Origin: Synechococcales cyanobacterium S06
GTDB taxonomy: Bacteria > Cyanobacteriota > Cyanobacteriia > Cyanobacteriales > JAABRE01
Length of the DNA: 42,565 nt
Assembly (NCBI GenBank): GCA_011391125.1
Contig: JAABRE010000045.1
Location: forward strand, 1 to 42,565
Reading direction: 5' to 3'
The translations under genes were made by a program, and so were the position numbers. Below the pieces are notes generated by a model. That model was given only the letters and a program-made list of their open reading frames with translations, did no database searches and was not told the DNA's origin. Shown piece after piece: positions 4,949-29,551 of the stretch; positions within the stretch are counted from its first letter, which is position 1, and the number at the start of each line of letters is the position of its first letter.

Positions 4949-6160
4949 TTAATCCTTTTGACTGCTGAAGTCTGATAAAATCTTATAATAACTGTGGGCT
5001 AAATTTTCCCAAATATACTCTTTTTCAAGTAATTTTCGGCCATTTTTCGACAAATTTTCCCGCAATTTTTCATCTTCAAATAAAAGACTTATTTTCTCTA
5101 CATATTCCTCGATTTTATTCGCTCTTAAGGCAATATTTTCTGAATTTATTCCCTCTAAACCCCGATCGCTTGCAACTATTGGGCAACCCGAAGCTAAAAA
5201 TTCCAAGGTTTTGATCTTCATGCCAAAACCAGTGCGTAAAGGGGCGATCGCCACCGTTGCCTTGTGTAAATATTCCACGATCGAAGGAACACGGCCAGTT
5301 ACCGTAATAGCGGGATTTCGCCCTAATTCTAGCACTTCGGGAGCAGGTTTAGAGCCGACTAGAGTTAAAGTTGCGTCGGGATATTTTGCTTGAATTAATG
5401 GGAATACTTCCAAACTAAAAAACCTCACTGCATCTATATTCACAAAATAGTCTAAACCGCCCACAAACACCAAATTATGACCTCCGGGGTCATTTTGACG
5501 GTATGGAAATGTATCTAAATCAACTCCATTTGCCACTACTGCAACCATGGCGCTATTGTCATATAGTTGCATTTGCGCTTGATCTTCATCGGTGGTGACA
5601 ACCACACGGGAAAATTTGCGGACAGTTTTTTCTTCATAACGACGGAGGAGGGGAAGATAAATTGTGTCTCTTATTTTGTTGTCTGAGGTGTTAGTTTCTA
5701 ACTGATTTTTGCAGGTTTTATATAACGAACTATGGACATTTATAACCGTATTTAACTTATGTTTCCAATCTGGTTTTATATATATTTCATTAACACTATG
5801 TTCACAGGTTATCACGTCAAATTTGCCTTCGTTTACTCCATTATCAATCCATTTTTGCATCTCCTCTGAATATAAGGATAATACATTTGGTGGTGTTCCT
5901 CCTAAGATAAATTTAGCAAAACGGCCTATTTTAAATAATAAGTTATTTTTGCTATTTGAAGGGCGATCGAAAACCACTAAATTAGTCACATATTTACGCA
6001 AATTATTAAGATCATCCTCTGTGACATCTTCACTTTTTTGAGTTACTAAAGTTACCTGATTATTCCTTGCAATTGGCTCTAATAGATTAAAAGTTCGATT
6101 ATGTGTACCTCCTTTCGTGGGAGGATAGGGAAACGTAACAGAAATCATTAAAATATTCAT
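4949..6160 (-). CDS. Glycosyltransferase family 4
   Basis: This 403-residue GT-B retaining glycosyltransferase probably moves a sugar from a nucleotide donor onto a surface polysaccharide or lipid-linked glycan. The N-terminal Rossmann half opens MNILMISVTFPYPPTKGGTHNRTF, with the Gly-rich donor/acceptor loop. The C-terminal half has VFVGGLDYFVNIDAVRFF and the E-x7-E-like block GMKIKTLEFLASGCPIVASD (about residues 310-335), which binds the nucleotide sugar. No membrane segment is evident, as expected for a peripheral cytoplasmic enzyme. It is the last gene of the leftward glycan cluster, after the PIN/partner pair. Sugar specificity is unknown. Confidence 0.9.
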   Translation of the reverse strand: MNILMISVTFPYPPTKGGTHNRTFNLLEPIARNNQVTLVTQKSEDVTEDDLNNLRKYVTNLVVFDRPSNSKNNLLFKIGRFAKFILGGTPPNVLSLYSEEMQKWIDNGVNEGKFDVITCEHSVNEIYIKPDWKHKLNTVINVHSSLYKTCKNQLETNTSDNKIRDTIYLPLLRRYEEKTVRKFSRVVVTTDEDQAQMQLYDNSAMVAVVANGVDLDTFPYRQNDPGGHNLVFVGGLDYFVNIDAVRFFSLEVFPLIQAKYPDATLTLVGSKPAPEVLELGRNPAITVTGRVPSIVEYLHKATVAIAPLRTGFGMKIKTLEFLASGCPIVASDRGLEGINSENIALRANKIEEYVEKISLLFEDEKLRENLSKNGRKLLEKEYIWENLAHSYYKILSDFSSQKD

Positions 6161-6202
6161 AATTTTGTTATTTCCAATTAATAATTAATACTTAAAATTA
6201 TT

Positions 6203-6403
6203 TTATTGATTTTTTTCCTTTCTAATTGTTTCAATATCCGACCAAAATTGCTCTCTGGTAACATTTTTTAAAGATTGTTGACGTTCTTTTGTATAATCAC
6301 CAAAACCCCATCCCATCTCCTGTAAAAATCTAATTGTGTCAACTTGACCTAATTCTTTTACTAATACTTGATAACCTTTTTCTCTTAATTCAATTGGTGT
6401 CAT
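6203..6403 (-). CDS. Small protein, likely antitoxin partner of the upstream PIN protein
   Basis: This 66-residue protein is charged and mainly helical by appearance, ending in FWSDIETIRKEKNQ. The stretch TIRFLQEMGWGFGDYTKERQQ recalls small partner proteins found beside PIN-domain toxins in cyanobacteria. A good ribosome site (AAGGAGAT on this strand, about 6413-6420) overlaps the stop codon of the PIN gene, and the gap is 16 bases, so the two are co-translated. The order is toxin first and antitoxin second, the reverse of most vapBC pairs. No DNA-binding motif is recognisable, so autoregulation is uncertain. The antitoxin role is inferred from the neighbourhood. Confidence 0.7.
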   Translation of the reverse strand: MTPIELREKGYQVLVKELGQVDTIRFLQEMGWGFGDYTKERQQSLKNVTREQFWSDIETIRKEKNQ

Positions 6404-6419
6404 TATTGTTATCTCCTTC

Positions 6420-6866
6420 TCATAAAAAATTATTCATTAACCAAAAAACTGGATTTTCTATCTTCACTTGCAATAAATTATTATATTTAATTGCTTTTTT
6501 TAATAATCTATCATCTGTTGTTAGCAACACATCTACTCTAGCATATTCTGCACAAGCAATATGAAAAGAATCGTAAACACCAAAACCTAATTTTTCTATT
6601 TCTTGTGACCGTTGATCTATTTCCCTGTTTATAATTACTTTTGAATTAGCTATTTTTAATAACTTCTTAATTTCCTTTAATTTATCAAGATTACTCATCC
6701 TTTTTAATTCAACGTCGATTGTTTCACTACTAATTAATTGATATTTTGCTAACTCCAGAAGTTGAAAAATTTTAATAATTGCTTCACCTTCTAAACGGTT
6801 TCTATCTTGTTTCCAATCATCAAAAGGGCGATTTAAACAGCATAAATCCAGATATATTTTCTTCAT
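6420..6866 (-). CDS. PIN-domain ribonuclease toxin (VapC-like)
   Basis: This is a 148-residue single-domain PIN protein. The acidic residues that bind metal in PIN nucleases are visible: D7 in YLDLCCLNRP, E48 in SSETIDVEL, D99 in GVYDSFHIACAE and D118/D119 in LLTTDDRLLK. PIN toxins typically cleave RNA and are held inactive by a partner antitoxin. The CCLNRPFDDW opening is typical of a PIN subgroup in cyanobacteria. The gene lies 19 bases downstream of the gmd-like gene and is followed by its likely partner. All point the same way, so the pair sits within a carbohydrate operon and may be transcribed with it. Confidence 0.85.
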   Translation of the reverse strand: MKKIYLDLCCLNRPFDDWKQDRNRLEGEAIIKIFQLLELAKYQLISSETIDVELKRMSNLDKLKEIKKLLKIANSKVIINREIDQRSQEIEKLGFGVYDSFHIACAEYARVDVLLTTDDRLLKKAIKYNNLLQVKIENPVFWLMNNFL

Positions 6867-6885
6867 TTTAATCCTTATAAATTAG

Positions 6886-7842
6886 TTAATTTATTGTCAA
6901 AGATTCCAGCATCATTGTAACAATATCGGGCATTTTATACTTAGCTTCCCAACCTAATTTAAGTTTAGCTTTAGCAGGATTACCTTTACTGATTGCCAAA
7001 TCACTTGGCCGGAAAAAAGCATTATCACTGATTACATAATCTTGCCAATTTAAGCCAAAATAAGCGAAAGATTCCTTAATAAAATCTTCTAATTTGTAAC
7101 TATGACCAGTACAGATTACATAATCATCAGGTTCGGGTTGTTGTAACATTAAATACATCGCTTCCACATATTCTGGAGCCCATCCCCAATCGCGAATTAC
7201 GGTAATATTTCCTAATACTAATTGCTCCTGTTTTTTCTGCGCAATATTATAAGCAGCATTAATAATTTTTTGTGTGACAAAACGTTTCGGTCTTAAGGGA
7301 GAATCGTGGTTAAATAAGATACCAGAACAAGCAAAAATCCCGTAAGCTTCCCGATAAGTTGCTACTTCCCAAAATGCGGCAGATTTGGCGACAGCATAAG
7401 GACTTCGCGGATGAAATGGTGTATTTTCATCGGCAAATTGATCCCCGATATCGCCAAAACACTCACTTGAACCTGCATTATAAAACTTAATTGGTTTTTC
7501 AGTGAATCTAATCGCTTCCAGTAAATTTAATGTCCCCGTAGCGACACTTTCTAACGTCTCAACTGGTTGCTCAAAAGACAATCCCACTGAGGTTTGTCCC
7601 GCTAAATTATAAACTTCATCGGGGTTAAATTTTTTCAGGATTGAAATCACACTTCTAAAGTCATTTAAAGAGACAGATTCTAACTGAATTTTCTCCTTAA
7701 TTCCTAATATTTTTAAATTAGTAAAATTACTAACTTGAGCATCCCTTGAAGTTCCACACACTTGATATCCCTTATCTAACAGTAATTTCGCTAAATAAGC
7801 TCCATCTTGACCCGATACTCCACAAATTAACGCTTTTTTCAT
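6886..7842 (-). CDS. GDP-mannose 4,6-dehydratase-like enzyme
   Basis: This 318-residue extended short-chain dehydrogenase converts, in the best-known case, GDP-D-mannose to GDP-4-keto-6-deoxymannose, the precursor of fucose, rhamnose or perosamine donors. The Gly-rich NADP loop is GVSGQDGAYL (8-17). The catalytic set is in GSSECFG, where family members usually have TSE, and in YAVAK. The block FACSGILFNHDSPLRPKRFVTQKI and the RDWGWAPEYVEAM motif are characteristic of Gmd rather than of UDP-sugar epimerases. No fucose synthase or Rmd reductase is in the window, so the final sugar is not defined. It starts two bases after the stop of the upstream GT2 gene, indicating an operon. Confidence 0.88.
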   Translation of the reverse strand: MKKALICGVSGQDGAYLAKLLLDKGYQVCGTSRDAQVSNFTNLKILGIKEKIQLESVSLNDFRSVISILKKFNPDEVYNLAGQTSVGLSFEQPVETLESVATGTLNLLEAIRFTEKPIKFYNAGSSECFGDIGDQFADENTPFHPRSPYAVAKSAAFWEVATYREAYGIFACSGILFNHDSPLRPKRFVTQKIINAAYNIAQKKQEQLVLGNITVIRDWGWAPEYVEAMYLMLQQPEPDDYVICTGHSYKLEDFIKESFAYFGLNWQDYVISDNAFFRPSDLAISKGNPAKAKLKLGWEAKYKMPDIVTMMLESLTIN

Positions 7843-7844
7843 CT

Positions 7845-8756
7845 TTATTTCTTAAATATATTTTTTACAACTGCGGATAAATAACCTATTTGTCCATAAG
7901 CATATACCAAATTCTCGAAACTTTGGTCTGGTTTATTAACATATTTTAATGATTTATATAAACCCCGAATTATTCTTTCTCCTCCCCTTGAAAATTGACC
8001 GATTCCTGTGTTTCCTTGTATTTCCTCCCGGTAACATTCACTTATTCCCTGCCACCAACTTCGGCTTAAAAACCAATTTACTTCCATTCTTTCGGGGGCA
8101 ACATTGTGTTGAACTAAAGCCTCGGGTAAATAAGCGACTTCCCACCCTTTATTTAAAGCCAATTCTGTCATGTATAATTCTTCATTTGATAACAGATTTT
8201 TGCCTTTACGTCCTAAGTTAACATCAAACCCGCCAACTTCTTCTAAAAATGTTTTTCTGAGGGAATAATTTACACCTCGAGGAGTTAAATTTGGCGAAGT
8301 AATATTAATAGTTTGCTCCCCTAAATCATAATAACCTAAACCTCCCGATAATTCAGTAGATAACCATCGCGGAGGAGTCCTATTTTCCGGCCAAATTAAG
8401 GTTACTTTTCCTCCCGCAATTGCTAATTTTCCGTTATTTTCATAAGCTTGAACCAATGTTTTTAGCCAGTTGGGAGAGGCGATCGCATCATCATCAAGAT
8501 AGGCCAAAATTGGGGATTTAGCTTCATTTGCTCCCCTATTTCTGGCCGCTGATAAACCTAAAATTGGTTCATAAATGTATGTTAAAAGGGGATTATTTAA
8601 ACGGGATTCAACTATTTTTTTCGTGTTATCTGTCGAAGCATTATCTATTACTAATACCTCATAATTATCATAATCCTGATTAAGCAAGCTATCAATAGCA
8701 TCACCTAAATAATGCTCTCGATTATGGGTACAAATTATAGCAGAAATATTAGACAT
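7845..8756 (-). CDS. Glycosyltransferase family 2
   Basis: This 303-residue GT-A inverting glycosyltransferase is the first gene of the leftward glycan operon. The nucleotide-binding N-terminus has AIICTHNREHYLGDAIDSLL and VLVIDNASTDNT. The metal-binding DxD motif is LDDDAIASPNW (D88-D90). Further on are GGFDVNLGRKGKNLLSNEELYMT, with an acidic catalytic stretch, and the region around WFLSRSWWQGIS. No transmembrane helix is clear. It is divergent from the next GT2 gene across an 83-base gap that must hold both promoters. Acceptor and sugar are unknown. Confidence 0.9.
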   Translation of the reverse strand: MSNISAIICTHNREHYLGDAIDSLLNQDYDNYEVLVIDNASTDNTKKIVESRLNNPLLTYIYEPILGLSAARNRGANEAKSPILAYLDDDAIASPNWLKTLVQAYENNGKLAIAGGKVTLIWPENRTPPRWLSTELSGGLGYYDLGEQTINITSPNLTPRGVNYSLRKTFLEEVGGFDVNLGRKGKNLLSNEELYMTELALNKGWEVAYLPEALVQHNVAPERMEVNWFLSRSWWQGISECYREEIQGNTGIGQFSRGGERIIRGLYKSLKYVNKPDQSFENLVYAYGQIGYLSAVVKNIFKK

Positions 8757-8839
8757 AATAATTTTTAATTAACAATTAAAGGGTAAAGTAGGCCATATTT
8801 TTGATAATATCCTATTATACATAAAAAAATATTAATGAG

Positions 8840-9826
8840 ATGATGCCTAAAGTAACAGTTTGCATCCCCACCTATAATCGATCGCACTATCTCCAGTATG
8901 CCGTAAATAGCGTACTACAACAAACTTATGGGGATTTTGAATTAATTATCTGTGATGATGGATCAACCGATGATACTCCGGAAATAGTGAGGAAATTTAA
9001 TGATTCTCGAATCCAATATTTAAGACATGAAAAAAATATTGGTAGAAGTTGCAACATGAAATCCGGTTTTTTAGCCGCGAAAGGGGAATATTTTGTTAAA
9101 TTTGATGATGATGATGGTCTTACTCCCGAATTTTTAGCAAAAACCGTTAAAATATTAGATGAATTTCCTGACATTGATTTTGTTTGTACTAATCATTGGG
9201 TAATTAATAGTAAAGGAGAAAGGGATTTAATTGCAACGGAAGCAAATGCTAAAAAATGGAGAAAAACTGAGTTAAAATTAGGGCAAATTCCTAACTTATT
9301 AGAAGAAACATTTAGCAAACAAAGTTTACAAGTTGGTTCGACATTATTCCGTTTAAACTGTTTAAAAGAAGTGGATTTTATGAGGACAGAAGCTGACGGT
9401 TGCGAAGATTTTGATTTACTGGTAAGATTAGCAATAGCGGGAAAAAGTGGCTATTTTATTCCCGAATTATTAATGGAATATCGCTTTCATGGAGGTCAAA
9501 CAAGTTTAAAACAAAACTTACATTTTTTGAAAGCAAAAACCTTTTGTATTAATAGTTATAAATTTGTTAATCCTGACTTAGAAAAAACCAGAATTAACAA
9601 ATTGGCAATCACCGAACAAGCATTAGGATTAAGATTAATCGAAAATAATGAGACAAATTCGGGGAGAGAATTATTGTTAAAATCCGCTCAAATTTTAGGC
9701 AATTCAAATAAATTTAAATTGGCGATTGTTTTATCATATTTGCCGCTAAAATTAAGACAAATTGCCTTACAAATATTTCGAAATATTCGCAGTCAAGATT
9801 ACTCAGAAAAAGTCAGAAATAACTAA
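8840..9826 (+). CDS. Glycosyltransferase family 2
   Basis: This 328-residue GT-A glycosyltransferase reads away from the leftward glycan operon. It has the nucleotide-binding CIPTYNRSHYLQYAVNSVLQQ and CDDGSTDDTPEIV, and the metal site KFDDDDGLTPEF (D89-D92). YRFHGGQTS near residue 215 is the kind of late motif seen in GT2 enzymes of polysaccharide loci. The start is one of two adjacent ATG codons (8840 or 8843). The C-terminal part is helical and basic, perhaps for membrane association. The following nuclease gene begins after 22 bases with its own strong ribosome site and may be co-transcribed. Confidence 0.9.
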   Translation: MMPKVTVCIPTYNRSHYLQYAVNSVLQQTYGDFELIICDDGSTDDTPEIVRKFNDSRIQYLRHEKNIGRSCNMKSGFLAAKGEYFVKFDDDDGLTPEFLAKTVKILDEFPDIDFVCTNHWVINSKGERDLIATEANAKKWRKTELKLGQIPNLLEETFSKQSLQVGSTLFRLNCLKEVDFMRTEADGCEDFDLLVRLAIAGKSGYFIPELLMEYRFHGGQTSLKQNLHFLKAKTFCINSYKFVNPDLEKTRINKLAITEQALGLRLIENNETNSGRELLLKSAQILGNSNKFKLAIVLSYLPLKLRQIALQIFRNIRSQDYSEKVRNN

Positions 9827-21972: not shown

Positions 21973-22120
21973 AATTTTTAGCCTCTATAATCTAAGCAAT
22001 AACTTCCGGGATTGGAAGTTTCAGGATTACCCTTTAATAATATTCTAAACAAAAGTATGCCTTAGAATCAGGGCAATTTGCTTTAAGATTAGAAAAAAAT
22101 GTAATTTGGGCAGAAATAAA

Positions 22121-22783
22121 GTGTTTACGGGATTAGTTCAATCGTTAGGTTCAATCAATGTTACGAGTCAAGATGAGTTTAAAATAGCTCCTCAAAATAG
22201 TTTAGAAAATTTAGTAATTGGTGATAGTGTTGCTGTTGACGGAGTGTGTTTAACAGTGGAGGAAATTAGTGGTAATGATTTTATCGCCACGGCATCTCCA
22301 GAAACTTTAAAAAGGACTATTTTAGGACAACTTAATCACAATTCAACTTATGTTAATTTAGAAACTTCTTTAAAAGCAGGAGGTAAAATTGGCGGTCATT
22401 TTGTCACTGGACATATAGACGGTTTAGGCTGTTTAATTGAGTCAATTAACACAAATAAAGCATGGGAAATGGTGTTTTCTGCTCCTCCTTCTTTCAGTGA
22501 ACAATGGCATAAATATATTGCTCGTTATCTAGTTTCTAAAGGTAGTATAGCAGTTAATGGTATTAGTTTAACAGTTGCTGATTGTGATCCCGATGGCAAT
22601 TGGTTTAAAACGGCGGTTATTCCCCATACTTATCAAGAGACTAATTTGTCTTATTTAAAAATAGGTGATTTGGTGAATATTGAAGGTGATATTTTAGGGA
22701 AATATGTGGAAAAATTATTAAGAATTAATCCCCTTCAAGAGGATATTTCCTTAAGTTTTTTAGCTGAAAATGGCTATTTATAA
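22121..22783 (+). CDS. ribE: Riboflavin synthase, alpha chain
   Basis: Riboflavin synthase dismutates two molecules of 6,7-dimethyl-8-ribityllumazine to riboflavin. The 220-residue protein has the two homologous lumazine-binding barrels: VFTGLVQSLGSI with SVAVDGVCLTVEEI, and WEMVFSAPPSF with GSIAVNGISLTVAD. The C-terminal helix for trimerisation follows. GTG 22121 is the preferred start because the family begins M-F-T-G-L; the TTG at 22106 adds five unrelated residues. Its stop codon directly abuts the stop codon of the convergent giant gene with no base between. Confidence 0.93.
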   Translation: MFTGLVQSLGSINVTSQDEFKIAPQNSLENLVIGDSVAVDGVCLTVEEISGNDFIATASPETLKRTILGQLNHNSTYVNLETSLKAGGKIGGHFVTGHIDGLGCLIESINTNKAWEMVFSAPPSFSEQWHKYIARYLVSKGSIAVNGISLTVADCDPDGNWFKTAVIPHTYQETNLSYLKIGDLVNIEGDILGKYVEKLLRINPLQEDISLSFLAENGYL

Positions 22784-25700
22784 TTAATTATTCTTGTTTT
22801 TTAGGTTGTCAAGAATGGTTTTAATTTGTTCATTAGTTGGCTGCAATTCTAAAGCTTTTTGATAATTATCAATTGCTCCTGGAATGTCACCTTGTTGTTT
22901 GTTTACTTCAGCGATATTTCTCCAGACTGTAAATTTACTTGGATGACCAAATTCTGCGGCTTTTTGATAATATTCAATTGCTTGATCTAATTTTCCTTGT
23001 TTGCGGTTTAATTTGGCGAATGTTAAATTAACATAAGGATTATTTGGCTGGATAGTTAGCGCTTTTTGGGAATAGATAGTCGCTAAGTTTAATTCATTTT
23101 TATTTATATAAATATCTGCCAAAATATTAAGAGAAGATAAATGATGAGGCTCTAATTCGATGGCTTGATTATAGATATTAATGGCCTCTTCTAATCGGTT
23201 TTGTTTTTGATATAAACGACCTAATCTATCATAGATATTAAAATATTTAGGCTGTACTTTAAGACCTTGATTACAAGCATGAATGGCGGTTTCTATGTCT
23301 GCTTTTTCTTCATAAATTGTCGACATTAAACAATATATTTCTGCATTTTCAGCATTAAAGCTGAGAATTTGTTGATAAATTTTTAGCGCTTCTGCATAGT
23401 TTTTTTGTTTCCGATAACTATCAGCTAAACTTAAATAAAAGTTAACTTTTTCCGGAGCAATTTCTATCGCTTTTTGATAGGAATTAATGGCCTCATCTAA
23501 ATCATTTTCCTTACTATAAATATTACCCATAATCCAATAAACATGGAGATTATTTGGCTGAATTTTTAGAATTTCTTGGCAAGATTTAAGAGTTTCTTCT
23601 AAGGGAATATAATAATTAGTTTCCGGTAAAGATAACTCTTCTTTTTTAATTACAGTAATCTCAATTAATTGTTGGTATAATTTGTCAGCTTGGGTCAATA
23701 AATTTTGATAATTTTCATCACTTAATTGATTTAATTCGGTTGGTGAGATGGCGATTTTCTCTTGATGAATTAACTTACTATCATAAAATTGTGTCGCTAA
23801 TTCGGCTTCTAAATTAAGGCCTTCAAATTGCTGATTTAAGGTATTAATAACCTGTTTTAATTGAGCAAAATATTTCTCTTGAGGTACATCAAAACAAATT
23901 ATAGGAAATGGTGATTTTTGATATTCTTCGAGGAGAATTTTATTGTAATGTATCCATAAAGAAAGACCTTCTTGAAGGGTTTTTTTATCCCTTTGATAAA
24001 GAGATAGGGCCACTTTTAAAGGATGTCTAAAAGTGCCAACTAATTGTAAATTATCAATTTTTTCCTGCCAAAATTTAAGGGTTAAAATTGTGCGAGGATC
24101 TTTAAACATCCAGACATTAGTAATATTCTTAAATTCCGCAATAATCTTATCTCTTTCTTGTTGGTTTTGTTCTGTAAAATTAATTTGATTCGGTGGATTA
24201 TCCCAACTTCCTTGATTCTGTTTTAAGATAAATTCATTTAATCTTTGAATATCTAAATTTTCGATTTGGCCTTTCAGATTATCTGAGGTAAATTCGACGA
24301 CTTTTCCCGTAAATATTCCTGTTTTTTGTAGAGAACCAGCTAAACAACTTGTACCACTTCTGTGCATTCCTAAAATAGAAATAATTGGTAAATTAATACT
24401 TGATTGATTCCCATAATAGGAGGAATCAACTATTCCTTCTATTTGTTGTTTAACCCATTCATTCGAGACTCCACTAACTCTTTTATAAACAAAGAAATCA
24501 CCATTTAATTGAGAAAAGTAAAGGGTATTTATTTGAGATATGGGTTGATATTTATTAAAGAGAAAATTTAAAGCATAGGGTCCGGTAGAATACCAAACAT
24601 TGTTATATTTACGATATTTTAAATGATTAATTATTAGTAATATAGCATCTTTCAAAAAATCAAGTTTGGGAATAGTGCCTATAATTGAATTTGTAAAATG
24701 AGCTTGATCTTTACATTCTAAATAACGAGGAAAGTCATCTCGTCTAACTAAGATCAGGTCGGGATTATTAATAATAATAGTATCTATGGATTTACAAGTT
24801 TCCATAGCCGCATCTAAATAGATTCCACCATATTCATACAATAACATTAATCGGGCTAGATCACTACGAGCTGCGGGAATTTTGATGGCTTGATATAAGT
24901 CTAATATGTCTTTGTCATATTTTTCTTTAATAAATTTAATCATATAATTATCATCGGCAAAAATGACATTATAATCGGTATTTATTGCTTTTGTTTTTTG
25001 TATTGCTTCATTAATTTTATCAGGAATCTCATTTTGATTATGCCAAAATAAAATCAGATTTTTAGGGATTTTTCTTGACTCTATTTGAGTATTAAGATTA
25101 TTAATCATAGTTTGAATTTCTTCGTTATTTGGTTGTAATTTTAGAGCTTCTTGATAATTTATCATAGCTTCTTTAAGATTTCCTTGTTGTTGGTAAGTAT
25201 CAGCGATATTTCTCCAGACGGTAAATTTACTTGGATGACCAAATTCTACGGATTTTTGATAATATTTAATCGCTTCATCTAAATTTCCTTTTTGACGGTA
25301 GAAATTAGCAAATGTCCAATTAAGATAAGGATTATTGGGATTTTTATTAAGTGCTTTATTCATCAGTATTGAGACTTTGTCTAATTCATTTCTTTGCAGA
25401 TAAATGGTACTTAAAATATTATTAGCTGAAGCATCACTATCATCTATTTCTAAGACTTTTTCACAATAATAAATTGCTGATTCTAGGTCTTTTTTTCCCC
25501 AATTCATCTGGGCTAAATTTCTATTAGTATGAATATTATTAGGCTCAATTTCTAAGGCTTTTTGCAGATAATTAAAACTCGTGGTAAAGTCTTTTTGTTG
25601 AATATAAATATTGCCCAAGTAATTATACCAAGTTACTTGTCCATCGGGTGCTATTTCTAATAATTGTTGATAGAGATTAATGGTCTTTTCTAAATTACCT

Positions 25701-28700
25701 TCTTTTCTTTCCAAATTAGCCATTTTTAAATAAAAATTCTGGTTATTTGAATATAAATTAATCGCTTTTTGATAGGTTTCTTTTGCTTCCGAAAATAACT
25801 GTTTTTCTTCTAATAATTGTCCTAATTTTTGATATATTTTAGGTTCGTGATAATTTAAAGCTATCACTTTTTGATAGTTTAATATTGCGCTATCACTTTC
25901 TTTTAAATCATTTTTAATTTCGGCCATTAAGTAATATACTTGAGGATTTTCTTGCTCATTTTCTAGGTATTTATCACAGTAAGAGAATGCCGATTCTAAG
26001 GCTGCTGTTTTATAGTAAGAATAAGCTAATTTATAGTATGTATTAAGTACATTTTTTGTATTTTGGGTTAAGAAATTTTGATAATTTTTGATGGCATTTT
26101 TATAATCTCCTTGAGCAAAGAAAATATCCCCTTGATTTTCAGTTTTTTGATCATTAATCTGACTATTTTCTGACAAATTAGGTAATTTTTCTGGGTTAAT
26201 ATATTGAGATTTAGAATTAATATTTATCATAATTGTTGCAGTTTCTGATCCATTATTTTTAAACCAAGTTACTCCTTCTTCTACTAAGTCTATTTCTAAT
26301 AAATAATTTCCTTCTAGTTCGGGAGTTGTAATTGTTAATAATATTTCGGCGGTTTCTTGTGGTAAAATTGCTTGAGGTAAATCACTTATTCCATCTAACC
26401 ATTGGAGATATTCTTCTTCCTTATTTAACCAATGATTACCTAATTTAAGATTACTCTTTTCAGTTTTTTCCCATTTTACAGGACTAATATTTGTCACAGT
26501 AACAGGTATTTGTAAACTTTGATTAGGAGGTAAGTTTAATGTTTCAGGTACAGTAATTTTAGCTTGATATTTTTCTTGACTAAAAATTGTTTTATTTTCT
26601 TCAATTTCTTGGCTAGTTTCTGCTAATAATTCTGTAATAGTTTTCGCTAAATCTTGAATATTTGGTTCGTTAAAATATTCACCATGATCTCCTGAAATAG
26701 TCTTAACTGAAAACCCTAAAGGATATAATTTTTGCCAGGTTAATTCGGGATTAGAATAGAGTTTATAAGGATTATAATTATCACTGTCACGACCAAAAAT
26801 TAAAGCAATTTTACCCTGATAAGGTTGATATTTAATGTTTTCTAATAAACATAACAAAGCGACTGTTTTCCCTTGTTTTTGCAATTGTTTCGCAATTTCT
26901 GTTACGATGAAAGTTGATTGACAATTCCCTGCCAGAAAATATGGTTCATGGGGTTGAATTGAGATGATTTCATTAGTATAATAATGGGCTAATTCCTGTA
27001 AATTTTCCTCGGTATATTCTTCTATAATTAAATGAGCAGATCGCATTCCATAAATTGGCTGTTCCTCTCCTAAATATTTAGCTAATTGTGATAGTTCTCG
27101 ATACCCTTGTAAAACCCAAAATAAAGGCGGTTTTGTCCCATTTAAGTTATGTCCAAAGACTAAGGAATTCGGGTTAATTCTTGTTCCTGGCCAACCCGAA
27201 GTATAGGCCAATAATTGATGATAAATTTCGGGGTTTAAGGTGTTTTCTTGTTTAATAATATTCGCAAGATTAGCCACTTTTTTACTTGGTATTTCTTGGT
27301 CTAAAATTGTTACTAAGTCCGCAATTGTGTTTAATTGAGATAAGGCTAAAACTGGTAATTCTCGCTTAAATTCTTGTTCTATCTCTGTAATTAAATTGGC
27401 GGCTAAAAGGGAGTTTCCACCTAAGAAAAAAAAGTTATCATTAATACTTATTTCTTGGTCTAACCATAAAACTTTTTGCCAAATTTGTGCCACTTTTTTC
27501 TCAATTTCGGTGCGTGGTAAAACAATTTCTGTATTTAAACTATGTTCTCTTTCTGGTTTTGGTAATGCTTTTATGTCGATTTTTCCATTCGGTGTTAAGG
27601 GGAATGCTTCTAGGGGAATATATACAGTTGGTATCATATATTCGGGTAGTTTTTCCTGTAAATATGTCCTTAATTCAGTGGGGTTAGGAACTTGTTTTTG
27701 ATCAGGAATTATATAAGCAATTAAATAATCTTGCTGAGTAATAACAAGAGTTTTTTCTACTTGAGGATGTTGGTTTAAAATTGATTCAATTGTTTCGAGT
27801 TCAAAATTATTGATCTTAATATTTTGTTTAATATTTTTTGTGGCTAAATACCAACTAGAAATAATCTCTAAATTGTTATTTAAAAATTGGCAACGACAAA
27901 CCTGACGTTGAATTTTCCCACTGGATGTTTTAGGAATTGTACCTCGTTTAATCAAAACCACAGCATAAAGGGGTAATTCATATTCGTGAGCGATACTTTG
28001 TCTAATATTATTAATAATATCTTCAGAAGCAATATTGTTATTAATTTTCCCTTCTACTTCGGTCACAATAACTATCTGTTCATTACCATCTTTTTCGATC
28101 GCAAATACAGCAGAAGCATTATTTCTTAATTGGGGATGACATTTTTCAACACTCCATTCAATATCTTGGGGATAATAATTTTGTCCTCGAATAATAATTA
28201 AATCTTTTAATCTTCCTGTAATAAATAATTCTTCATCTTTAATAAATCCTAAATCTCCTGTTCTTAAAAAAGGTCCTTCACCGGTATCTAAATAAGCTTG
28301 AAAGGTGTGTTTTGTCACTTCTAAATTATCCCAATAACCTTCGGCAACTCCCGAACTTGATACCCAAATTTCTCCCACTAGATTTTGAGATAATTCTGTG
28401 CAAGTTTCTGGATTAATAATCACAATTTTAGTATTTTTTAGCGGTTTACCAACTCCTACTAATTGTGATCCATTTTCGGTTTCAATAATTTGGTTTTGAC
28501 TTAAGGCCTGAGAATCTACAGTTAAATAAATTGGTGGTTTATTTTCAGATTTATTGGTCACACCTAAAGTAGCTTCAGCTAACCCATAACCAGGACAAAA
28601 ACTCTCTTTTTTAAAACCACTGATTTGACAAAGATTCGAGAAATTTTCTATAGTTTCTACCTGAATCATTTCCGCTCCAATTCCAGCAGATTGCCAACTA

Positions 28701-29551
28701 TTTAAGTTTAAATTAGTAATCTTTTGAGGAGCTATTTTTTCGACACAATAAGCATAAGCAAAATTAGGAGCTTGGGAATGAGTTACTTGATAATGGGAAA
28801 TAGCTTGTAACCAATTTAACGGATGTCTAATAAAGTTTAAAGGAGACATCAAATAACAGCAATGACCATTATAAAGAGGTTCTAAAATGCCTTCTACTAA
28901 GCCATAATCGTGAAAATAAGGCATCCATGTTACTGTAATACTATTAGTATCATAACCACAGGATTCTTGCAAATCAGCTAAATGACACATCAAATTTTTA
29001 TGGGTTAACATAACTCCTTTAGGTTGAGAAGTCGAACCTGAAGTATATTGTAAATATGCCAATGTTTGCGGATTAATTTCTGGTTTGAGCCATTTTTCTG
29101 ATAACTGTTTCTCTAATATTTCTGCGGTGGAAAATTTAGAAATATTTTCCCAATCTAATTCATTAATTGTGGCTAAAAGTTGGTTATTAGTAAGTAAAAT
29201 TGTTGCTTGAGCATTATCAGCAATAGATGTTATTCTCGGTAAAAGACGTTTTAAACGAGACGATTCCGGAGCTGGAGTTGGAATGGCAATCATTCCAGCA
29301 TATAAACAACCAAAAAATGCACTTATAAACTCTAATCCTTGAGGATAAATTAATATTACTCTACTACCAACGGGGAATTTAGATTGCAGAAATGAGGCGA
29401 TTATTTGCGCTTTTTTGTCTAATTCTCCATAAGTCAAATAATCTTGTTCTTTAATACCATCGACTAAGAAACCATAGGCTTTTTGTTCGGGCTGATTTTT
29501 GGCTCTCCATTGCAATAATTCAACTAAAGTCGGTAATTTTTCTTTATTCAT
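22784..29551 (-). CDS. 2255-residue FAAL/carrier/thioesterase-like/TPR/GT32/sulfotransferase fusion
   Basis: Domains in order: (1) fatty-acyl-AMP ligase, 1-568, with YTSGSTSQPKG (169-179), WMPYFHDYGLVEG (209-221), GYGLAEATLG (321-330), RTGDLGF (430-436) and K546 in PKTSSGKIQR; (2) a lone adenylation C-subdomain, about 582-667, ending PLTPNGKIDIKALPKPE; (3) carrier protein, about 678-750, with the phosphopantetheine Ser714 in GGNSLLA; (4) thioesterase-like hydrolase, about 800-978, with Cys877 in GNCQS and His956; (5) Ig-like domain, about 995-1113; (6) TPRs, about 1135-1487; (7) GT32-like glycosyltransferase, about 1495-1690; (8) sulfotransferase, about 1722-1935, with GMHRSGTS and FRHPLKVALS; (9) TPRs, about 1965-2251. 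It should load a fatty acid on the carrier. The product and the acceptor of sugar and sulfate are unknown. No PKS, NRPS or phosphopantetheinyl transferase gene is near. Domain edges are estimates by eye. Confidence 0.9.
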   Translation of the reverse strand: MNKEKLPTLVELLQWRAKNQPEQKAYGFLVDGIKEQDYLTYGELDKKAQIIASFLQSKFPVGSRVILIYPQGLEFISAFFGCLYAGMIAIPTPAPESSRLKRLLPRITSIADNAQATILLTNNQLLATINELDWENISKFSTAEILEKQLSEKWLKPEINPQTLAYLQYTSGSTSQPKGVMLTHKNLMCHLADLQESCGYDTNSITVTWMPYFHDYGLVEGILEPLYNGHCCYLMSPLNFIRHPLNWLQAISHYQVTHSQAPNFAYAYCVEKIAPQKITNLNLNSWQSAGIGAEMIQVETIENFSNLCQISGFKKESFCPGYGLAEATLGVTNKSENKPPIYLTVDSQALSQNQIIETENGSQLVGVGKPLKNTKIVIINPETCTELSQNLVGEIWVSSSGVAEGYWDNLEVTKHTFQAYLDTGEGPFLRTGDLGFIKDEELFITGRLKDLIIIRGQNYYPQDIEWSVEKCHPQLRNNASAVFAIEKDGNEQIVIVTEVEGKINNNIASEDIINNIRQSIAHEYELPLYAVVLIKRGTIPKTSSGKIQRQVCRCQFLNNNLEIISSWYLATKNIKQNIKINNFELETIESILNQHPQVEKTLVITQQDYLIAYIIPDQKQVPNPTELRTYLQEKLPEYMIPTVYIPLEAFPLTPNGKIDIKALPKPEREHSLNTEIVLPRTEIEKKVAQIWQKVLWLDQEISINDNFFFLGGNSLLAANLITEIEQEFKRELPVLALSQLNTIADLVTILDQEIPSKKVANLANIIKQENTLNPEIYHQLLAYTSGWPGTRINPNSLVFGHNLNGTKPPLFWVLQGYRELSQLAKYLGEEQPIYGMRSAHLIIEEYTEENLQELAHYYTNEIISIQPHEPYFLAGNCQSTFIVTEIAKQLQKQGKTVALLCLLENIKYQPYQGKIALIFGRDSDNYNPYKLYSNPELTWQKLYPLGFSVKTISGDHGEYFNEPNIQDLAKTITELLAETSQEIEENKTIFSQEKYQAKITVPETLNLPPNQSLQIPVTVTNISPVKWEKTEKSNLKLGNHWLNKEEEYLQWLDGISDLPQAILPQETAEILLTITTPELEGNYLLEIDLVEEGVTWFKNNGSETATIMININSKSQYINPEKLPNLSENSQINDQKTENQGDIFFAQGDYKNAIKNYQNFLTQNTKNVLNTYYKLAYSYYKTAALESAFSYCDKYLENEQENPQVYYLMAEIKNDLKESDSAILNYQKVIALNYHEPKIYQKLGQLLEEKQLFSEAKETYQKAINLYSNNQNFYLKMANLERKEGNLEKTINLYQQLLEIAPDGQVTWYNYLGNIYIQQKDFTTSFNYLQKALEIEPNNIHTNRNLAQMNWGKKDLESAIYYCEKVLEIDDSDASANNILSTIYLQRNELDKVSILMNKALNKNPNNPYLNWTFANFYRQKGNLDEAIKYYQKSVEFGHPSKFTVWRNIADTYQQQGNLKEAMINYQEALKLQPNNEEIQTMINNLNTQIESRKIPKNLILFWHNQNEIPDKINEAIQKTKAINTDYNVIFADDNYMIKFIKEKYDKDILDLYQAIKIPAARSDLARLMLLYEYGGIYLDAAMETCKSIDTIIINNPDLILVRRDDFPRYLECKDQAHFTNSIIGTIPKLDFLKDAILLIINHLKYRKYNNVWYSTGPYALNFLFNKYQPISQINTLYFSQLNGDFFVYKRVSGVSNEWVKQQIEGIVDSSYYGNQSSINLPIISILGMHRSGTSCLAGSLQKTGIFTGKVVEFTSDNLKGQIENLDIQRLNEFILKQNQGSWDNPPNQINFTEQNQQERDKIIAEFKNITNVWMFKDPRTILTLKFWQEKIDNLQLVGTFRHPLKVALSLYQRDKKTLQEGLSLWIHYNKILLEEYQKSPFPIICFDVPQEKYFAQLKQVINTLNQQFEGLNLEAELATQFYDSKLIHQEKIAISPTELNQLSDENYQNLLTQADKLYQQLIEITVIKKEELSLPETNYYIPLEETLKSCQEILKIQPNNLHVYWIMGNIYSKENDLDEAINSYQKAIEIAPEKVNFYLSLADSYRKQKNYAEALKIYQQILSFNAENAEIYCLMSTIYEEKADIETAIHACNQGLKVQPKYFNIYDRLGRLYQKQNRLEEAINIYNQAIELEPHHLSSLNILADIYINKNELNLATIYSQKALTIQPNNPYVNLTFAKLNRKQGKLDQAIEYYQKAAEFGHPSKFTVWRNIAEVNKQQGDIPGAIDNYQKALELQPTNEQIKTILDNLKNKNN

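Follow-up and report, generated by a model that had tools for sequence, protein, structure and literature searches.

A fused cyanobacterial protein that looks like a shortened lipopeptide assembly line with glycosyltransferase-like and sulfotransferase units

Background

In cyanobacterial lipopeptide synthetases started by a fatty acyl-AMP ligase (FAAL), such as those of the puwainaphycin type (PMC4219810, excerpt) and the one on contig 183 of Xenococcus sp. PCC 7305, the FAAL loads a carrier and a peptidyl carrier protein followed by a thioesterase (PCP-TE) terminates the chain. Both features are shared by P0001, the 2255-aa fused protein encoded at positions 22784-29551 of contig JAABRE010000045.1 of Synechococcales cyanobacterium S06; this contig, at its full length of 42,565 nucleotides, is the window analysed here. 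Unlike these synthetases, P0001 has no condensation (C) or complete adenylation (A) domain, and it carries a GT32-like glycosyltransferase (GT) and a sulfotransferase (ST) on the same chain. It is an arrangement of lipopeptide-synthetase parts that is new, shortened and fused. Judged from its sequence, it resembles the opening and closing parts of a lipopeptide-type assembly line, joined at the adenylation hinge and extended by TPR-GT32 and ST-TPR units (TPR, tetratricopeptide repeat).

A second system with similar components is olefin synthase, which has the order FAAL-ACP-KS-AT-KR-ACP-ST-TE (ACP, acyl carrier protein; KS, ketosynthase; AT, acyltransferase; KR, ketoreductase; PMC11837247, excerpt) and, like P0001, combines a FAAL, a carrier, an ST and a TE in one pathway. 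In P0001, however, the ST follows the TE, falls below the Pfam cut-off and has ST-TPR proteins as its nearest kin among the matches listed. The TE is PF00975-like with a Cys nucleophile, whereas the olefin synthase of the host has an Abhydrolase_1 match, and the FAALs of P0001 and olefin synthase are 46% identical. The identification of P0001 as an olefin synthase was considered and rejected, as no KS, AT or KR appears in the best 25 of 39 Pfam rows for the whole protein or in its pieces, and the true olefin synthase of the host, complete by Pfam in the order given above (2878 aa), lies on contig C123 (L054:2476-11112).

Thioesterases of nonribosomal peptide synthetases (NRPSs) with a Cys nucleophile include those of SulM, ObiF1 and AB3403 (PMC11298585, excerpt). 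The P0001 TE resembles that of AB3403 in its Cys nucleophile and in the acid at position I, as placed by alignment; the P0001 acid is Glu, and SulM and ObiF1, with the acid at position II, form a beta-lactam or beta-lactone (same excerpt). A 2025 review divides FAALs into stand-alone, didomain and multidomain forms with no link to GTs in the excerpted text, where the main text has no word beginning with 'glycos' and sulfotransferase occurs twice, in a figure legend and with olefin synthase (PMC11837247). Literature combining FAAL, glycosyltransferase, sulfotransferase and tetratricopeptide was not found in a search whose coverage excluded most subscription papers, and nothing was found for hassallidin-related literature. 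Aeruginosin clusters contain peptide synthetase genes together with glycosyl- and sulfotransferase genes, and are not known to include a FAAL-PCP-TE core or a fusion. These clusters (PMC10744761, excerpt) were set beside P0001 as a further known system.

Results

Probable origin from two ends of an assembly line

Among 291 genomes of the order, the P0001 FAAL is best matched by the starter FAAL of Xenococcus contig 183, with 65% identity, and the two pair with support of 100/100 in a tree of 16 FAALs. On contig 183 a 3689-aa frame with the order FAAL-PCP-C-A-PCP-C-A-PCP-C, in which the last C is weak, lies ahead of a 1731-aa C-A-PCP-TE-FW-TPR frame encoded on the same strand. Similarity of P0001 to the Xenococcus FAAL stops near residue 574, and similarity to the A C-subdomains of three termination modules begins at 574-583, the adenylation hinge. 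The carrier with Ser714 and the TE are homologous to NRPS termination modules, in which the PCP precedes the TE, and residues 583-1129 are 49% identical to the relic-PCP-TE-FW part on Xenococcus contig 146. In Pfam runs on the whole of P0001 (best 25 of 39 rows) and on its pieces, the C domain is absent and the A domain is reduced to its C-subdomain. Each block of P0001 occurs apart elsewhere, and TPRs are found at or near the joints. Quite probably, a FAAL-started lipopeptide synthetase collapsed to give P0001, an event that we infer and that would explain the odd domain order. P0001 does not look like a free assortment of domains but like a shrunken synthetase with additions. A sequence-only reading of this locus had overlooked both clues to this, the membership of the carrier-TE-Ig-TPR part in a family of peptide-synthetase termination modules and the match of the FAAL to the starter of such an assembly line.

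Features of the P0001 gene, with window positions and supporting evidence
Feature	P0001 residues	Window positions	Strand	Evidence
Whole fused gene	2255 aa	22784..29551	minus	ATG at 29551, stop 22786-22784
FAAL	1-567	27851..29551	minus	Pfam AMP-binding 202 bits; NCBIfam FAAL models; best PDB match 7r7e
NRPS adenylation relic (C-subdomain only, from hinge)	570-668	27548..27844	minus	AMP-binding_C 41.6 bits; alignment to complete Xenococcus terminal-module A domain
Peptidyl carrier	678-752	27296..27520	minus	PP-binding 54 bits; LGGNSL motif; Ser714 codon 27410-27412
Thioesterase	760-1000	26552..27274	minus	Pfam Thioesterase 38.5 bits (cut-off 26.4); Cys877, Glu904, His956 by alignment
Ig-like domain, NBR1/FW fold	995-1116	26204..26569	minus	N_BRCA1_IG 22 bits (below cut-off 28); Foldseek 4ole
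First TPR array	1130-1480	25112..26164	minus	Pfam
GT32/Caps_synth-like glycosyltransferase	1488-1705	24437..25090	minus	Gly_transf_sug 60.6 bits (cut-off 23); Caps_synth 36.8 bits; TPR-GT32 relatives; motif D1580-A-A
PAPS-type sulfotransferase	1718-1960	23672..24400	minus	Sulfotransfer_3 22.6 bits (below cut-off 27); GMHRSGTS, FRHPLKVALS; stand-alone ST-TPR relatives
Second TPR array	1985-2255	22787..23599	minus	Pfam; end repeats end of first array

The frame is uninterrupted, with no internal stop in its 2255 codons on the minus strand from 29551 down to 22784; the plus strand of this interval carries stops throughout. All domain junctions are in frame. The G+C fraction at third codon positions (GC3) is 0.19-0.21 in seven of the eight blocks and 0.115 in the Ig block. 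The single 2255-residue frame, its domain order and the carrier serine Ser714 proposed in the sequence-only reading are all borne out, on the minus strand, and the frameshift that the reading had named as a possible objection does not occur. None of the domains it claimed is absent, although two score below their Pfam cut-offs. The TE-like domain is present, with the nucleophile corrected to a cysteine in the sequence GNCQS rather than GxSxG, and the fold of the Ig-like domain proves to be that of NBR1/FW. The GT32-like domain exceeds its Pfam cut-off, but its activity is less sure than had been claimed. The ST is recognizable from its retained motifs in spite of its low score.

Constraint on the FAAL and the termination module

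The AMP-binding domain of P0001 clusters with other FAAL-like sequences in the tree of 16. Its top NCBIfam row is a large NRPS/polyketide synthase (PKS) model that is matched in its FAAL part, and the best FAAL-only models, PRK05850 and PRK09192, match at full length under their curated cut-offs. What we take to be the FAAL motifs are kept. Of 119 positions that are invariant in the other 14 FAALs aligned, P0001 deviates at three, fewer than the olefin-synthase FAAL of the host (20 of 136), while 35% of its residues differ from its nearest relative. On this comparison the FAAL is under normal constraint, and it very likely loads Ser714 of its own carrier.

The catalytic triad of the TE is well conserved over 12 family rows, with Cys in all 12, Glu in 11 (one Asp) and His in 11 (one Tyr). 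The predicted model of PCP-TE-Ig, built from nine sequences, has a pLDDT of 78.7, and 71-93 by block in the Ig part. The predicted TE aligns with the fengycin TE 2cbg (VIA-align Z 19.0, rmsd 2.9, 174 aligned), and the predicted Ig part with the chains of the NBR1 FW structure 4ole (Foldseek E 1.4e-7 to 5.0e-7, target TM-score 0.60-0.63).

The TE-FW pair of P0001 is ~50% identical to Xenococcus genes and occurs near full length in seven of the 291 genomes of the order, host included. A profile scan of a species-genome collection gave 43 loci, eight of them near full length, in Xenococcus sp. PCC 7305 (three), Moorena bouillonii (two), a Gomphosphaeria aponina metagenome-assembled genome (MAG), Planktothricoides sp. 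SR001 and a Nitrosomonas-labelled MAG. A single-sequence scan of the same collection returned none, and tblastn of viral contigs found no TE-FW relatives. Elsewhere the pair mostly terminates NRPS-type chains with a carrier and at least an A C-subdomain, with or without trailing TPRs; Moorena also has a TE-FW-TPR protein in which a carrier was not found. Among ten carrier-bearing rows, four have a full A domain on the same chain (G067a, G067c, G026b, G135), five show the A C-subdomain alone (P0001, G067b, G159b, G083b, G026a) and one, Planktothricoides, has an A domain split over two frames. In the latter (L050:8453-15560) the apparent split leaves an 811-aa C-A part and a 677-aa part, and genes for FMO-like and methyltransferase proteins intervene in the same orientation. 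The Gomphosphaeria MAG (L167:1506-12062) has a stand-alone 511-aa A domain near a termination module without a detected A core, which suggests loading in trans.

The complete architecture of P0001 was not seen elsewhere among the matches listed in the genomes searched. With a FAAL-relic-carrier query against the 291 genomes, only the match in the host reaches the carrier among those listed, the longest other extending to residue 635. With a GT32-ST query against 388 genomes, only that of the host begins before query residue 187 among the matches listed. A phylum search with query A1 at E 1e-40 returned only the host genome among 386, and no TE-FW locus with frames drawn has a FAAL ahead of the pair on the same chain.

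Glycosyltransferase, sulfotransferase and TPR units

Relatives of the GT32-like domain are weak (28-31% identity) and occur in four of 242 other genomes, as three TPR-GT32 proteins (Xenococcus, G119, G043) and one stand-alone protein (G214). A toxin-like GT was also considered; the TcdA_TcdB Pfam line, at 15.7 bits (cut-off 23.6), was taken as a chance overlap of the shared GT core. Both cofactor motifs of the ST are kept in an alignment with eight relatives. A P-loop-like RSGTS and a distal R-x-P...S are motifs of PAPS sulfotransferases. Stand-alone ST-TPR proteins with 49-54% identity support the assignment of the ST; its nearest kin among the matches listed, 49-51% identical in the domain, are such proteins from G083 (387 aa), Moorena bouillonii (398 aa) and G258 (at least 717 aa). 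A related ST domain is N-terminal in long frames of 1784-2129 aa in genomes of family f2 (L083, L084, L085, L089). The longest repeat between the two TPR arrays, 252 bp with 79% identity, lies at their ends, which suggests duplication or recombination between the TPR ends.

Unfused relatives and neighbouring genes

Proteins consisting of FAAL-PCP-TE without other domains are encoded in three genomes, G218 (950 aa), G182 (920 aa) and G135 (947 aa); a description of such cyanobacterial proteins was not found in the literature searched. They have the same functional core as P0001, including Cys at the GxCxG position in all three. They differ in lacking an adenylation relic, an FW domain and a fused GT or ST, and their TEs are 25-36% identical to that of P0001 in matched stretches. 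In the FAAL tree the sister of the pair P0001 and Xenococcus is formed by G182 and G218 (88/89), not by G135. In G218 PhyH-UbiA-TPR and TPR-sulfotransferase genes come directly after the FAAL-PCP-TE gene in the same orientation (L217:7869-16449), and on its other side lie a methyltransferase, a PhyH and a GT group 1 gene. As far as gene content goes, this locus is an unfused form of the P0001 combination. The row of FAAL-PCP-CysTE, PhyH-UbiA-TPR and TPR-sulfotransferase also resembles a lipid or meroterpenoid pathway. The G135 locus contains FAAL-PCP-TE, FAAL, PhyH-ACBP-PCP, A-PCP, C-A-PCP-TE-FW, an ST (by BLAST) and several GT genes, and in G182 one GT2 gene adjoins the FAAL-PCP-TE gene. Both ST and GT genes are near the FAAL-PCP-TE proteins in two of the three genomes (G218, G135).

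Similar neighbours accompany the TE-FW pair. On one strand of Xenococcus contig 146 a GT4-type gene, two Sulfotransfer_2 genes, a GT8 gene and another Sulfotransfer_2 gene precede a C-relic-PCP-TE-FW-ST-TPR gene, which is, by its domain order, a precedent for the fusion of an ST and TPRs behind PCP-TE-FW. The first Moorena locus includes GT4-type and pyruvyl transferase genes, and the second includes GT28-like, FkbM and carbamoyltransferase genes, C-relic-PCP-TE-FW-TPR, TPR-GT-D-like and TPR-Sulfotransfer_4. The Planktothricoides locus has GT2, Sulfotransfer_3-like (just below the cut-off), Sulfotransfer_1/2 and GT group 1 genes, and that of the Nitrosomonas-labelled MAG has GT group 1, UDP-glucose dehydrogenase and phosphopantetheinyl transferase (PPTase) genes. 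In this MAG (L102, DJMI01000171.1) the synthetase genes ending in TE-FW lie within a sugar locus; it is far from cyanobacteria by label, and transfer or mis-binning is possible. By Pfam, which was applied to part of the TE-FW neighbours only, GT, ST or other sugar genes are nearby in six of ten non-window TE-FW loci, a count that leaves out the two near-copies of the Moorena loci in G083. A uniform phmmer scan with 11 query proteins, which is insensitive and misses several genes that Pfam found, detected a GT or ST in four of the ten loci versus one of 20 ordinary TE loci (one-sided Fisher p 0.03); the control loci were hand-picked, and some are clipped by contig ends.

Window and host genome

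The P0001 gene stands alone. A convergent gene (22106-22783), presumably riboflavin-synthase-like, ends directly at its stop codon, and a divergent frame lies 282 bases away from its ATG. At 4949-9826 are glycosyltransferase and sugar-nucleotide genes, which we take to encode a GT4, a dehydratase-like protein and two GT2 proteins. Transposase-like frames were recognized by eye at both ends of the contig (254-643 and 41858-42514). The sequence-only reading had noted no PKS, NRPS or PPTase nearby. This agrees with an inspection of the window frames by eye but not with the genome as a whole, a draft assembly of 168 contigs with one PPTase match on contig C1, NRPS-like frames on C113, C138 and C27, and the olefin synthase on C123. 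Lack of a PPTase near P0001 is not a problem, since the genome has one. Host contig 109 carries a Wzt-type exporter gene, a sulfotransferase gene and a GT8-like frame below the cut-off. These genes and the PPTase make a sulfated surface glycan plausible in the cell, with the link to P0001 being conjectural.

Discussion

Proposed activity

The FAAL would activate a fatty acid as acyl-AMP and load it onto the phosphopantetheine arm at Ser714. Where a Cys-type TE directly follows a FAAL-loaded carrier, its possible outcomes are release of a free fatty acid and acylation of an acceptor. In P0001 the TE would take the acyl chain on Cys877 and hand it to an acceptor; with every condensation and adenylation step lost, there is no peptide-building module to receive it. 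A sugar, glycan or glycolipid precursor would most likely serve as acceptor, one that is also modified by the GT32-like and sulfotransferase domains, with the FW and TPR parts holding the acceptor or partner proteins. Acylation of a sugar-containing acceptor appears most likely on account of the frequent company of GT, ST and other sugar genes. The loading of a fatty acid has good support; the activity of each domain and, above all, the nature of the acceptor we infer. Taken as a whole, the reading of P0001 as a collapse-derived, self-loading acyl-transfer enzyme, probably acting on a sugar-containing acceptor, seems about evenly balanced. A single all-in-one enzyme whose product is acylated, glycosylated or sulfated, much as proposed earlier, is still the best reading. 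The same domain kinds, which occur as separate neighbouring genes in relatives, now support it, with the reservation that GT activity is less sure.

Several observations weigh against this interpretation. The TE could simply hydrolyse. The GT motif GGIYLDAAME has D-A-A in place of DXD, where the three TPR-GT32 relatives have D-A-D, so GT activity appears doubtful; D-A-T in three Caps_synth loci means that D-A-A is no proof of its loss. A single-sequence fold of the GT32-ST region has a pLDDT of 34.7. PCP-TE-FW departs from the other rows at 22 of 125 positions that are otherwise invariant, more than any other of the eight rows (next 17 of 120; G159a and G083a, without a carrier, the near-duplicate G083b and the very divergent G026b were left out of the 12). 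Constraint on this part is therefore weaker or changed, as a new substrate for the TE part or its relaxation would predict. In the TE-FW tree P0001 sits on an unresolved long branch, so that its kinship with contig 146 is a matter of BLAST identity only. Four of the ten TE-FW loci have no GT or ST among the neighbours annotated, namely Xenococcus 183, the synthetase with the closest FAAL kin (two neighbours), Xenococcus 230 (five) and Gomphosphaeria (three and three). Of the four phmmer positives, the one on contig 146 scores through its own fused ST, and the ten loci, being related, are not independent. The GT genes of the window are 13-18 kb from the near end of P0001, and no adjoining gene points to a glycan.

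Alternative explanations

P0001 could instead be a trans-acting starter, its FAAL-PCP feeding an acyl chain to the synthetases on C113, C138 and C27 and its TE, GT and ST finishing a glycosylated, sulfated lipopeptide. The NRPS-like frames on these contigs, a parent family that is lipopeptide-type by architecture, and the GT and ST genes within the NRPS loci of Planktothricoides and G135 are all consistent with this. However, P0001 is alone, no NRPS genes being seen among the window frames in an inspection by eye that did not extend to docking signals. In addition, the synthetase on C113 ends in its own TE match, and a TE joined to the starter carrier would be a rival for the acyl group that it holds; the explanation appears unlikely. 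Somewhat less likely again is that the TE hydrolyses only, leaving FAAL-PCP-TE futile or fatty-acid-editing and the GT and ST acting on an unrelated glycan after a chance fusion via TPRs. The stretch common to both TPR arrays makes such a fusion plausible, and the many deviations in PCP-TE-FW would also fit. Against this, like partners neighbour the G218, G135, Planktothricoides, Moorena and Xenococcus contig 146 loci, and because these kinds recur as neighbour genes their joining in P0001 looks non-arbitrary.

That P0001 is a decaying remnant, the functionless product of a recent deletion and fusion, would agree with an architecture unseen elsewhere among the matches listed, with D-A-A in the GT and with the deviations in PCP-TE-FW. 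It is nevertheless improbable, given 2255 codons without stop or frameshift, retained FAAL, PCP, TE and ST motifs, and a FAAL that keeps 116 of 119 invariant sites despite its overall divergence. Most improbable is an assembly chimera of at least two genes, which the draft assembly and the unmatched architecture might suggest. It is disfavoured because the junctions are in frame, GC3 is near-uniform and the internal repeat, at 79% identity, is too diverged for easy mis-bridging; the FAAL-to-relic junction also coincides with a domain hinge.

Implications

The preferred reading, acyl transfer by a collapsed synthetase, may extend beyond P0001. It is possible, though we hold this only tentatively, that a compact cyanobacterial class of FAAL-carrier-CysTE proteins with TPR-sulfotransferases and GTs acylates sulfated glycans by a thiotemplate route, with P0001 as the fully fused form derived by lipopeptide-synthetase collapse. 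P0001 would then be a natural assembly line shortened at the adenylation hinge, as engineers attempt, and the relatives with separate genes make the acylation idea directly testable. If the reading is correct, a single gene carries the load, transfer, glycosyl and sulfo steps, and this would be an unrecognised way to acylated sulfoglycans or sulfoglycolipids. Thiotemplate (NRPS-type) chemistry would decorate glycans, joining the fields of lipopeptide synthetases and sulfated polysaccharides, which are now treated apart.

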